This document shows positions 337-4,356 of a stretch of 8,383 nucleotides of DNA, in pieces. How positions within the stretch are numbered: the stretch's first letter is position 1; each line of letters opens with the position of its first letter. This DNA is from an archaeon. GTDB lineage: Archaea > B1Sed10-29 > JAJSAI01. Location of the stretch: the NCBI GenBank assembly GCA_024274695.1, contig JAJSAI010000022.1:1-8383 (forward strand). Reading direction: 5' to 3'. The position numbers were made by a program, and so were the translations under genes. The notes below the pieces were generated by a model. That model was not told the origin of the DNA. It worked only from the letters and a program-made list of their open reading frames with translations, and did no database searches.

Positions 337-450
337 ATGAAAAGGCGTCCTAGGAAGTGGAAAAAGAAGGGTAAAATGCGCTGGAAGTGGAGAAAGAAGA
401 GAATGCGCAGGGAAAAGAGAAAGCGCAGAATGAGAGCAGGAAAACTCTGA
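337..450 (+). CDS. rpl41e: Large ribosomal subunit protein L41e, 37 aa
   Basis: A 37-residue, extremely basic peptide beginning [18 protein letters not shown] and ending MRAGKL. The core [18 protein letters not shown] matches the very short ribosomal protein L41e/eL41 of archaea and eukaryotes (pattern W-K-K-R-M-R-R-x-K-R-K-R-R), a single helix sitting at the ribosomal subunit interface. The start at 337 is preferred over the internal ATG at 376 because GGTG (328-331) lies five bases upstream, and because archaeal forms I know begin with a similar [10 protein letters not shown]-like extension. The gene is easy to miss because of its size. It sits between its own promoter and tRNA-Trp, only 23 bases from the tRNA, so the two may share a transcript. 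Identification is from motif memory, not from a search. Confidence 0.88.
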
Positions 451-509
451 GTTTACACTGTCCTTGCTTTCTTGGGGCCATGGGGTAGTGGTATCCTGAC
501 TGGCTCCAG

Positions 510-569
510 AACGGCTGGAGCGCTGAGCCCGTTACCAGGGCTATGATCTCTGATTGGTATCGTGGGGAT
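510..569 (+). other. Intron of tRNA-Trp with canonical bulge-helix-bulge
   Basis: The intron lies between tRNA positions 37 and 38. A strict BHB can be drawn. The outer helix is the anticodon stem (499-503/571-575). The 5' bulge is A508-G509-A510 and the 3' bulge A568-T569-A570. The 4-bp central helix is CTCC (504-507) with GGGG (564-567), one pair being T-G. The inner intron helix is ACG(G) (511-514) with (T)CGT (560-563). The archaeal splicing endonuclease cuts after the second bulge base, between 509/510 and 569/570, which exactly restores the tRNA loop. At 60 nt it is shorter than the roughly 100-nt Haloferax tRNA-Trp intron. Confidence 0.92.
515..549 (+). ncRNA. Putative box C/D-like (kink-turn) guide for 2'-O-methylation of C34, inside the tRNA-Trp intron
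   Basis: CTGGAGC (515-521) is exactly complementary to GCTCCAG (503-509), the anticodon region of the same tRNA. One base later comes a D-type box CTGA (523-526). The fifth base upstream of the box, G518, pairs with C506, which is C34, so the N-plus-five rule of C/D guides is met for the wobble cytosine. After CTGA, stem GCCC/GGGC (527-530/538-541) with loop 531-537 is followed by a three-base bulge T542-A543-T544, then G545-A546 facing G525-A526, and T547 facing T524. This is kink-turn geometry with a C-type box ATGATCT (543-549) that matches RUGAU but not the last two bases. In Haloferax and other euryarchaea the tRNA-Trp intron is a known C/D guide. Here only one half-motif is evident. Confidence 0.7.
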
Positions 570-604
570 ACCAGTCGACGTGGGTTCGATTCCCACTGGC
601 CCCA

Positions 605-1248: not shown

Positions 1249-2640
1249 CCGGTAGATCAGAGCCCTGCCCGAATCGTCCTCCGCCTGGAACAACAGCACA
1301 GCGTTCTGTTCAAGAAAACTGAGCAGGGGAGTGTGAAATCTTTCATCGTACGGGTAGGCGTGCACGTACACGTATGAAACGTTGTACTCGCACTCCATCC
1401 TGCGGAAAGCAGGAGGATACCCGTTGAACGCCTTTAACGCCAGGAAGTACCTGTCCGTAACATTGGGAGCGTACTCAACGTACGCGTCCCAAAAGCTCTT
1501 CCTCTCCGCAATACTAGTCACCCAGTGCCCCTCAGCAAAACCGCTGAAAACAACCGCGTCCTCCGGCAGGTTCTCCCGCGCCCATGAGAGAACAGCGTAG
1601 TCCGGCCTGGGCGGGCCAACCCTGGAAAAGATAAGAGGATAAACTGCTGCTATCACCAGGAGGTATACTACCGCGAGAACCCTGACAAGCCGCGCGTTCA
1701 CTGGAATCCTGAACTCTGAAAGCAGTCTCTCCATTCTAGAGAACCCGAGGGCTGCGAAGAACGCGAGGGGATAGTAAATGAACTCGTTAAGCCTGTTCCC
1801 GAACAACAAGGGAACAGAAACTGAGAACACTAGCCACGCGGACATCCTCGGGTGCTTCTTGTGGTAGAGGAGCCACCCGGCAAGGCCTATAATCCACGTG
1901 ACAACTGAAGCAGAACTTGCAGCCGCCCCTGACTCGAACAAGAAGTACTGGACACCCTTCTGCAGTTCAACAAAGTTCTCGTACACGGGAGAGGGCGCGG
2001 GCAGGCCGTGCATAAGCAAGGAGGCCGCGATGGACAGGATACCAGGAACAGCTGCGAGCAGCAGTTCTCTCCTGCCCCTGAAGGAAACCAGCAGGAGCAC
2101 GAGCCCCACGGTGAACACAAGAGGGTGTACTAGCGCGGACGCGAAGAGTAGCAGGCTCTGCAGGCCAAGAGACCCGCCCGAAGGCTTCTGTTCTGACCTC
2201 AGGTAGTACACTGAGAATATTAGCAGCATGGCGATCAGCCGAGGGTTAATGTGGGAAGAGAGGTAGATGAACCCCGGGATCGTCAGAAGAAAGAACCAAG
2301 AGTAAAGTGCTCTGCGGGCCCCCAGCCGCTTCTTGCAGTAGTCGTAGAACATCACGCTAAACAAGGAGCCTGCCAGAGGGTTGACCAGGAGCTTGAGAAG
2401 GCCGGGAAACAAGGCCAGCAGCGCGGGAAAGCCAGGAGGGTACGTGAATGACCTTCCCCCGTACGACAAAGGATCGTAAAGACTTCCTGAAGAGACGATC
2501 TCTGACATCCTGACGTGGAAGTATGTCGTGAACCCGATTATGTTCTCGGGAGAGTACTCTACAGCCCTGAGTAACGCTGGGCTGAGGAACAGGACGAAGG
2601 ACACTAAAAACAGGGCCAACTGCTTCTTATCTTGGAACAT
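1228..2640 (-). CDS. GT-C superfamily-like membrane glycosyltransferase, 470 aa, degenerate first-loop motif
   Basis: A multi-pass membrane protein: an N-terminal membrane segment (residues 8-26), an external loop with GFTTYFHVRMSE (36-47) and YPPG (67-70), then roughly ten further hydrophobic segments to about residue 355, and a soluble C-terminal part (from about 365). This is the architecture of GT-C enzymes such as STT3/AglB and related mannosyltransferases, which use lipid-phosphate sugars on the outer membrane face. Its first-loop motif aligns with that of the upstream gene (IGYDNFFHARMAE), but the acidic position is Thr38 here, so catalysis by the usual scheme is doubtful. ATG 2640 was chosen over an upstream in-frame start at 2688 because AGGAGG (2655 to 2650) lies nine bases before it. 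The gene overlaps its upstream neighbour by 14 bases. Substrate and exact family are unknown. Confidence 0.75.
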   Translation of the reverse strand: MFQDKKQLALFLVSFVLFLSPALLRAVEYSPENIIGFTTYFHVRMSEIVSSGSLYDPLSYGGRSFTYPPGFPALLALFPGLLKLLVNPLAGSLFSVMFYDYCKKRLGARRALYSWFFLLTIPGFIYLSSHINPRLIAMLLIFSVYYLRSEQKPSGGSLGLQSLLLFASALVHPLVFTVGLVLLLVSFRGRRELLLAAVPGILSIAASLLMHGLPAPSPVYENFVELQKGVQYFLFESGAAASSASVVTWIIGLAGWLLYHKKHPRMSAWLVFSVSVPLLFGNRLNEFIYYPLAFFAALGFSRMERLLSEFRIPVNARLVRVLAVVYLLVIAAVYPLIFSRVGPPRPDYAVLSWARENLPEDAVVFSGFAEGHWVTSIAERKSFWDAYVEYAPNVTDRYFLALKAFNGYPPAFRRMECEYNVSYVYVHAYPYDERFHTPLLSFLEQNAVLLFQAEDDSGRALIYRLQGQNC

Positions 2641-4000
2641 ACACTGCCGCCTCCTGACCGCATAACGGGTCACACTTCCAAGAGACAAACACCTTGCTAA
2701 CGTTCACGGAGTCCTCAAGAATTTCTCTGCCCCAGTCCCTGGAACCGTACACTATATAATCTGGGGAGTACTCGTTTATGTTCTTTCTCACGAGCTCGGG
2801 AGAGTACTCCCAGAACATTCTCTCGTAGTCATCCCATTTTTGCTTGTCAGGAATGCTCTCAAAGTAGAGGTCAAGATTGCAGGACTTCTGAGGGGCCAGG
2901 GTCAGAAGATGGCCGCAGAGGGAGTACTCGCTCATGACCCTCTGACCACTTTGTCCCGAGATCCACTGGATTAGAGCGTCATCCGGCGGGGTGAGTGAAG
3001 AGTGTGCAACAGTGTTCACAGTGACAATGCAGGCTGCAGTAAACGAGACTATGAACAGTACCTTGAGAGCCTGTCCCTTGGCTCCACGAAGCGCTGACGA
3101 GACGAGCATCACAAACCCCACTGAAAGGTACAAGGGCATTCTCCACGGGTGGAGTACTGGAGTGACCAGGAACGAGAAGTATGCTACAAGGAAGAAAACA
3201 GACCAAACCGCCCAGAACCTGTCGAAACGGCTCCTGTAACTAGAGCAGAAGAGCACAGGGATCACGGCTCCCAGGATAAAAGGAGAGTACAAGAACAGCC
3301 AGTCCCTCAGGGACATGAACACGTACTTTGACCCGAAAAAGTTCGTGCTCTGGTAAAGCAGATCGTATCTGGAGCCATACCATGCCAGCAGGAAAACAGC
3401 GGAGGGAGCGAGGAAGAGGGCAGCGTCCTTCAGGCGCTTGCCCCTCAGCAGTAACAAGAGCATGACCGAAGAGTACACGCCTGCCATGAAAGAGAATGAA
3501 AAACAGGCTGCCTGAGCAAGCCCTGCCAAGAGAATCCTGTCCTTGTAAAGGAAGTAAAAGGCCGCGAGAGACAGGGCAAGGCCCACGACCTCAGGAGAGT
3601 TGTATCCCGCGGTTATAAGGAATGGGTTGAACGTCATCAGGAAAAAGCCCACCAGAGCCTCTCTCCATCCCTTTATTTTCGCCAGCACATAAAGCAGGGT
3701 CAAGGGCAGTAGCATGCTCAGGGCAGGGAGCAGGAACCTTGAAGCCTGGAGAGCATCTCCTCCGAAAAAAACTGATGCACCTGCCAGCAGAAGATGGTAA
3801 GATGGAGGGTAAAGGTTAGCCCTCTCCTCTGGCCACGGGATCGTTCTGGGCACGCCATTACTGTATAACTCGGCCATCCTCGCGTGAAAGAAATTATCAT
3901 AGCCTATGGGGTACTTTTCGCGGGAAGCGGGCACCAGCCTGACCGCCAGCCCTGAAAGGAGGATTACCAGCACGCAGAGCACGAGGATCTTCCTGTTCAT
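2627..4000 (-). CDS. GT-C superfamily-like membrane glycosyltransferase, 457 aa
   Basis: An N-terminal membrane segment (residues 4-20) is followed by an external loop carrying GYDNFFHARMAE (33-44), whose D35 and H39-x-R41 resemble the first-loop D-x-x-[YF]-H-x-R pattern of STT3/AglB and other GT-C enzymes. ERANLYPPSYH (59-69) follows. About ten more hydrophobic segments run to about residue 330, then a soluble C-terminal region with five cysteines (LCG, SCN, KCDPLC) that could form disulfides outside the cell. The AglB sequon-binding motif WWDYG is not present, so an oligosaccharyltransferase call is not justified. ATG 4000 overlaps the stop of the upstream gene as ATGA, with GGTTGAT shortly before it, so I prefer it to TTG 4006. 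Likely a membrane glycosyltransferase acting with the next gene; the acceptor is unknown. Confidence 0.75.
   Translation of the reverse strand: MNRKILVLCVLVILLSGLAVRLVPASREKYPIGYDNFFHARMAELYSNGVPRTIPWPEERANLYPPSYHLLLAGASVFFGGDALQASRFLLPALSMLLPLTLLYVLAKIKGWREALVGFFLMTFNPFLITAGYNSPEVVGLALSLAAFYFLYKDRILLAGLAQAACFSFSFMAGVYSSVMLLLLLRGKRLKDAALFLAPSAVFLLAWYGSRYDLLYQSTNFFGSKYVFMSLRDWLFLYSPFILGAVIPVLFCSSYRSRFDRFWAVWSVFFLVAYFSFLVTPVLHPWRMPLYLSVGFVMLVSSALRGAKGQALKVLFIVSFTAACIVTVNTVAHSSLTPPDDALIQWISGQSGQRVMSEYSLCGHLLTLAPQKSCNLDLYFESIPDKQKWDDYERMFWEYSPELVRKNINEYSPDYIVYGSRDWGREILEDSVNVSKVFVSWKCDPLCGQEAAVYVPR
2650..2655 (-). promoter_or_regulatory. Ribosome binding site within the upstream gene, fixing the start at 2640
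   Basis: The minus strand reads AGGAGG at 2655 to 2650, nine bases ahead of ATG 2640 and inside the last codons of the preceding gene. This is the layout of an overlapping, translationally coupled pair. Confidence 0.65.
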
Positions 4001-4356
4001 TTGCAATCAACCCACTCGTACAAGGTGTAAGGGCTTCTTTCGCTTCCCTTAAGGATTTTTCCCGCGTAGACGTCAAACCTTATCCTGCCAGAGTAAGAGG
4101 ACACGAAGTACTCCAGCACACCCTCACCGCTTATCTCCTGGCTCATCACCCTCCTCTTGATATCCTTCTCGTCAAGCCAGACGTCAACAGTCATGGGCCT
4201 GCTGACCTTGTAGTGCAGGAACAGGTCACAGCCTGTCTTTTGGATGTACACGTAGTCCGCAGAGTAGTCCTGGCCCTTGAAGGACAGCACGCTGGCAGCG
4301 GCTGCCAGCGAGCAGAGGACTATCAGAACAGGTATGAGCTTATCAAGATTCATCAT
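3997..4356 (-). CDS. Small membrane-anchored extracytoplasmic protein, 119 aa, unknown function
   Basis: One hydrophobic segment (about residues 7-25, IPVLIVLCSLAAAASVL) follows a short N-terminus, so the remaining roughly 90 residues are probably outside the membrane. This part alternates hydrophobic and polar residues (DYVYIQKTGCDLFLHYKV, MTVDVWLDEKD, GRIRFDVYAG), as expected of a beta-sandwich. It has two cysteines at residues 43 and 118, which could pair. I recognise no family. It is the first gene of the operon with the two GT-C proteins, and the next start overlaps its stop as ATGA, so it may be an accessory or substrate-presenting subunit. The start is MM: ATG 4356 fits a leaderless transcript from the TATA box at 4378-4385, and ATG 4353 is the alternative. 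Confidence 0.65.
   Translation of the reverse strand: MMNLDKLIPVLIVLCSLAAAASVLSFKGQDYSADYVYIQKTGCDLFLHYKVSRPMTVDVWLDEKDIKRRVMSQEISGEGVLEYFVSSYSGRIRFDVYAGKILKGSERSPYTLYEWVDCK

Follow-up and report, generated by a model that had tools for sequence, protein, structure and literature searches.

The tRNA-Trp gene and its surroundings

The window, by which we mean the whole 8,383-nt stretch of DNA analyzed here, carries a tRNA-Trp gene whose exons are separated by a 60-nt intron (Table 1). In tRNA numbering, C34, G37, A38, and C39 correspond to positions 506, 509, 570, and 571, and the splice site can be read as a bulge-helix-bulge (BHB) motif in which CTCC (504-507) pairs with GGGG (564-567), with bulges at 508-510 and 568-570 and an inner helix formed by 511-514 and 560-563. 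A 37/38 intron of tRNA-Trp with a BHB, one of the features by which the known two-motif tRNA-Trp intron guides are recognized, is thus present at 510-569. ARAGORN made no call for this gene, which is recognized by the Rfam tRNA model; as run, the program also left the intron-bearing tRNA-Trp genes L003, L005, and L006 unreported, so annotation pipelines based on it would miss all four.

The tRNA lies 23 nt downstream of the stop of a short, unlisted open reading frame (337-450, plus strand), the product of which is very likely ribosomal protein eL41; the Pfam Ribosomal_L41 model gave a match below the cutoff (E = 0.0036) to its 376-450 part. Further along, 1228-2688 and 2627-4006 on the minus strand code for neighboring membrane proteins of 486 and 459 aa, for which a Pfam search returned no match and which are perhaps glycosyltransferase-like.

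Table 1. Features of the tRNA-Trp locus, in window coordinates
Feature	Position	Strand	Remarks
tRNA-Trp(CCA) gene with intron	474..604	+	Exons 474-509 and 570-604; RF00005, 52 bits; anticodon CCA at 506-508
Predicted target of guide 34 (G31-G37)	503..509	+	Exact complement of 515-521; C34 = 506
Canonical 37/38 intron, 60 nt	510..569	+	BHB read from the sequence; central helix kept in relatives
Predicted guide 34, CTGGAGC	515..521	+	G518 opposite C34; kept in relatives, with the box in exact register
Predicted box D, CTGA	523..526	+	NNGA box in the same register in 17/33 families
Hairpin linking box D to box C	527..541	+	GCCC 527-530/GGGC 538-541, loop 531-537; stem covaries in 39 unique introns
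Predicted box C, ATGATCT (RUGAUCU variant)	543..549	+	Bulge 542-544; RUGAU at the same place in relatives; same variant in G128
12-nt spacer after box C with guide 39	550..561	+	Pairing part 553-561, G557 opposite C39; spacing identical to Thermococcales-like introns
Would-be box D' site	562..565	+	Reads GTGG, i.e., lost; reused by the BHB helices
Predicted target of guide 39, across the 3' splice site	567..575	+	C39 = 571

Elements facing C34 and their conservation

The 5' part of the intron contains an exact complement of the anticodon loop region (CTGGAGC at 515-521 against GCTCCAG at 503-509), and a single base, G522, separates it from a CTGA, such that the fifth base before this box, G518, faces C506, i.e., C34. 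Box C/D guides are generally recognized by a CUGA with an antisense element ahead of it, positioned such that the target lies opposite the fifth base before the box; this combination is found at 515-526. A GCCC/GGGC stem leads from this candidate box D to ATGATCT, which agrees with the RUGAUGA consensus in the R, the UGAU, and the tandem G.A/A.G pairs and differs from it in the final two letters. Together, the two boxes would form the kink-turn-like pairs G545.A526, A546.G525, U547.U524, and C548.C523, the last of which is G-C in the standard motif. An earlier note, made from the window alone, had proposed on these grounds that the intron is a C/D guide for C34; the seven-base complement in its register, the stem with its three-base bulge and kink-turn geometry, and the loss of the standard C-G pair in a box ending in CT are all borne out by the sequence. 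When the dinucleotides of the intron were shuffled 200,000 times, a 7-mer complement arose in 1.3% and TGGAGC+N+NTGA in 0.07% of cases, which makes the single sequence suggestive only and leaves conservation as the decisive evidence.

In two genomes of the same order, "Candidatus Micrarchaeota archaeon B47_G15" (G004) and DPANN group archaeon RIFCSPHIGHO2_02_FULL_47_15 (G006), the intron has CTGGAGCG(C/A)TGA, a hairpin, and ATGAT. Two further members of the order, G002 and G005 (families f2 and f4), were recovered via a search on the 5' half; guide 34, the D box, the hairpin, and an RUGAU box are also present in G005, where an insertion upstream of the motif brings the intron to 185 nt, and, with one guide mismatch, in G002. 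The comparison with relatives that the earlier note had advised thus finds the elements at 515-526 and 527-549 conserved. A search for an intron-less tRNA-Trp across the phylum of the window (19 genomes in our collection) yielded none, a single match in G004 being taken for chance. Matches to TCCAAA in G004, G012, G015, and the genome of the window are not tRNAs according to Rfam, and a tRNA-Trp covariance model run over the 19 genomes, which ranked intron-free tRNAs of other kinds first, was replaced by patterns.

Beyond the phylum, a scan of 85,000 species genomes that required the guide, the D box, and the C box gave 40 matches. About 27 of these are archaeal tRNA-Trp genes or lie on archaeal contigs, mostly of DPANN archaea and Altiarchaea (Woesearchaeota, Nanoarchaeota, Diapherotrites, Altiarchaeota, Micrarchaeota, Parvarchaeota, and Nanohaloarchaea), and the bacterial matches lie outside tRNA genes in a number close to the estimated chance level. 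As this set was chosen for guide and boxes, only the hairpin and guide 39 (see below) count in it as independent evidence. A second survey was blind to the guide, requiring only GGCTCCAGA and a T arm separated by an intron of suitable length; it matched 81 of 394 archaeal genomes. Counted by family (n = 33, including the separately added G002 and G005), guide 34 lies near the 5' end of the intron (in G005, after its insertion) and is followed by an NNGA box in exact register in 17; it lies near the 3' end with a box in 3 and is present without a box in 4. Shuffled introns have guide plus box in 0.3%.

For covariation, we aligned 39 unique introns with guide 34 first, taking the first occurrence of box C to avoid bias; the hairpin was no search criterion for these. 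In permutation tests, which leave relatedness among the sequences in place, hairpin pairs 1, 2, and 3 form in 38, 36, and 29 of the 39 introns (null expectations of 24.4, 20.6, and 15.2; 0/5,000 permutations as good in each case), and pair 4 forms in 24 (null, 14.1; 2/5,000). By the same measure, the first base of box D pairs with the sixth letter of RUGAUGA in 27/39 (null, 14.9; 0/5,000), as A-U in 14, C-G in 10, U-A in 2, and U.G in 1. At this position the window has C.C and its order-mates have C.U or A.A, which marks the weak C box as a feature of this lineage.

On the basis of these observations, we consider it very probable (about 0.88) that the intron serves as a box C/D guide, directing 2'-O-methylation of C34 (Cm34) in its own tRNA-Trp. 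Three points count against this reading: the duplex with the target comprises only seven perfect pairs; C523.C548 stands in place of the standard G-C pair, which is also missing in the close relatives G004 and G006; and an archaeal single motif without C' and D' may be a weak guide. The earlier note's suggestion of a decaying guide fares poorly, as the C34 half is kept across 17 of the 33 families and the CT-ending C box recurs (as GTGATCT) in the canonical-order intron of G128. Nor is the intron unusual or minimal in size: 60 nt is midrange, and a Woesearchaeota relative (L036; AB_69_Bin_160) has a tRNA-Trp intron of 36 nt, ACTTGGAGCGTTGAGCGAAAGCGATGATCGGAAGAA, with guide 34, box D, and box C joined by a 2-bp hairpin with a GAAA loop. 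At the other extreme, the unusually long tRNA-Trp introns of L041 and L116 (177 and 185 nt) keep the core of guide 34, D, hairpin, and C, with the extra sequence lying downstream in the former and upstream in the latter. In four DPANN genomes (L021, L031, L038, and L039), an apparent break in the T arm of tRNA-Trp hints at a further intron within the T loop.

The second guide and the rotated order of elements

The sequence following box C bears the signature of a second guide. After ATGATCT, the window has 12 nt, CTGATTGGTATC, and then GTGG. Within them, ATTGGTATC (553-561) forms nine contiguous pairs, including one U.G, with GATACCAGT (567-575), and G557, five bases ahead of the lost D' site, faces C39. 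A guide toward position 39 is thus recognizable in the 12-nt register, as in two-motif introns. Summed over the set of introns, this pairing is 202, compared with 152.6 for permuted targets (0/2,000) and 131.5 for shuffled introns (0/500); a compensated pair distinguishes GGTGTC/GACACC in G002 from GGTATC/GATACC in the window; and most introns that have guide 39 place the base facing C39 at a distance of 7 or 8 nt from box C. The earlier note had seen neither a second motif nor a guide for position 39; the latter is present, and only its D' box is gone. The note had also taken C39 for unusual, a view that does not hold: all 22 aligned exon sequences have C39, and the predicted targets in Pyrococcus furiosus tRNA-Trp are listed as C32, C34, and C39 (PMC7668247).

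The D' site reads GTGG, there is no C' box, and D precedes C, in place of the linear order C-D'-C'-D; the intron is consequently a variant and not a member of the Haloferax/Thermococcales two-motif subtype. A C' or D' box was sought in the circularized intron as well, and none was found: GGGGATA (564-569 plus 510), which in the circle immediately precedes the 12-nt spacer belonging to guide 34, does not match a C' box. A second CTGA, at 550-553, was ruled out as a D box, since it directly follows box C within the 12-nt spacer.

The relationship to the two-motif form becomes apparent when the elements are placed on a ring. In Thermococcales-like introns, a group named here from its sequence, a C box is followed by 12 nt ending in guide 39 and then by CTGA. 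Common to both layouts is guide 39 after box C and guide 34 before box D, and what differs is the opening of the ring, which the splice junction places between D and C in Thermococcales-like introns and between D' and C' in the window. The order guide34-D-hairpin-C-guide39 is a circular permutation of C-guide39-D'-C'-guide34-D; of the two kink-turns, it retains only the one distal to the junction, which the hairpin closes. The intron is best explained as the known two-guide tRNA-Trp intron in rotated order, with one of its two motifs lost. The permuted form is common to many DPANN archaea and Altiarchaea. Within the class of the window, the introns of G016, G017, and G018 (L121, L122, and L123) have the mirror layout, guide 39, CTGA, hairpin, C' box, and guide 34, with the junction-side boxes, including the D box of guide 34, degraded. 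The D'-C' hairpin of G017 and G018 has long, variable insertions.

Intron-encoded box C/D guides of archaeal pre-tRNA-Trp were reportedly described by Clouet d'Orval in 2001 and Singh in 2004. With the Haloferax volcanii/Pyrococcus sR50 guide, the intron in the window shares the gene, the intron position, the target C34, the fifth-base rule, and a position-39 guide in the same register over the 3' splice site with 12-nt post-C spacing; it differs in its order, the canonical one being read here from Thermococcales-like introns, and in having one kink-turn, no D' or C', and a length of 60 nt. Such tRNA-Trp intron guides are the precedent (PMC4090602, PMC7994747), and Thermococcus provides documented cases of tRNA-Trp introns in circular form (PMC9014305). 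The stable 66-nt tRNA-Met intron of Nanoarchaeum equitans is, by its description, likewise a DPANN tRNA intron with a single recognizable C and D box and a proposed C/D sRNA, but it resides in another tRNA and its target was not established (PMC3491384). In the gene for sRNA24 of N. equitans, box D stands ahead of box C and the canonical order exists only in a circle, the form in which this permuted sRNA was proposed to work; unlike the guide in the window, it is freestanding (PMC3491384). Single-domain minimal box C/D guides, which have a single kink-turn with one box of each type, are active in Xenopus oocytes, but these were tested in a eukaryotic system and have the guide between C and D in a linear RNA (PMC6770171). 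In the literature on permuted guides and on the introns of DPANN tRNAs and of tRNA-Trp, a scope that leaves aside the original papers of 2001 and 2008, we found no description of a permuted tRNA-Trp layout, and to our knowledge the form has not been previously described.

Competing folds and a proposed mechanism

That the complement is coincidental and the intron an ordinary spacer hairpin with a role only in splicing might seem conceivable, given that the tRNA-Trp introns of several archaeal families (f45, f80, f89, f111, f83, and f135) are plain hairpins without a guide; with an exact-register guide and box in over half of the families against the shuffled expectation, and with a covarying hairpin, this very improbable view is, at the level of sequence, already all but refuted by conservation. 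A different question is whether the RNA guides methylation at both sites, with Cm39 directed without a recognizable D' box by the same RNP or by a circular dimer. The compensated pairing and exact 12-nt register of guide 39 go beyond the needs of a dead remnant, and canonical homologs target the C39 base, but nearly all relatives of the same layout have non-CTGA letters at the D' site, as the window does, and guide 39 is missing altogether from the 34-first introns L036, L085, L088, and L116. We regard activity at both sites as distinctly unlikely.

Folding raises a further possibility, namely, that in addition to its guide role the intron acts as a switch, the complements 503-509/515-521 and 553-561/567-575 keeping the precursor from splicing until L7Ae, Nop5, and fibrillarin have done their work; methylation would then come first. 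For naked RNA, the minimum-energy fold of 474-604 is a guide fold of three hairpins (-67.6 kcal/mol), in which the intron pairs with the two exon strands of the anticodon arm, compared with -52.0 kcal/mol for an enforced full BHB and -59.4 kcal/mol for the anticodon stem and central helix only. Nearly all 34-first introns share this preference. A methylate-then-splice order is plausible on these models. However, the energies take no account of tertiary tRNA contacts and proteins, and any guide complementary to its own exon would yield the same result in cis. In some introns, moreover, the spacer would not allow the complete duplex to form in cis (in G153 a single base separates exon and guide), which points to action in trans, as reported for the Haloferax guide (PMC4090602). 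A switch of this kind appears rather doubtful.

Returning to the intron as a guide for C34, boxes D and C, joined by the short hairpin, would form one kink-turn binding L7Ae and then Nop5 and fibrillarin, all of which are encoded in the genome along with RtcB, and the guide at 515-521 would pair with the anticodon loop and direct ribose methylation of C34. The guide following box C (550-561) would be brought into register for C39 by pairing over the splice site with the 3' exon; with the D' and C' boxes gone, Cm39 is doubtful, and this half is probably now either a remnant or an aid in keeping the precursor open. The kink-turn overlapping the splice junction would have been lost in evolution, and splicing and ligation by RtcB would yield a circle in which the order C-guide39-guide34-D is restored. 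More broadly, we tentatively propose, as a possibility with the odds somewhat against it, that a large share of the Archaea (DPANN archaea and Altiarchaea) have a permuted single-kink-turn guide that gains the canonical C-to-D order only upon splicing and circularization and whose fold in the precursor excludes the splicing fold, coupling methylation and splicing.

Cm34 of tRNA-Trp is thought to prevent reading of the UGA stop codon (PMC7668247). The guide described here would extend the textbook case of an intron that modifies its own tRNA to the archaea with the smallest genomes, where it would be retained in introns down to 36 nt. These introns would offer a natural series of single-kink-turn guides for probing the minimum needs of archaeal methylation, as well as an example of an intron whose guide fold and splicing fold compete. 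The rotated order suggests that what is conserved is the circular rather than the linear form of the intron, and that the splice site can shift freely between the two kink-turn loops.
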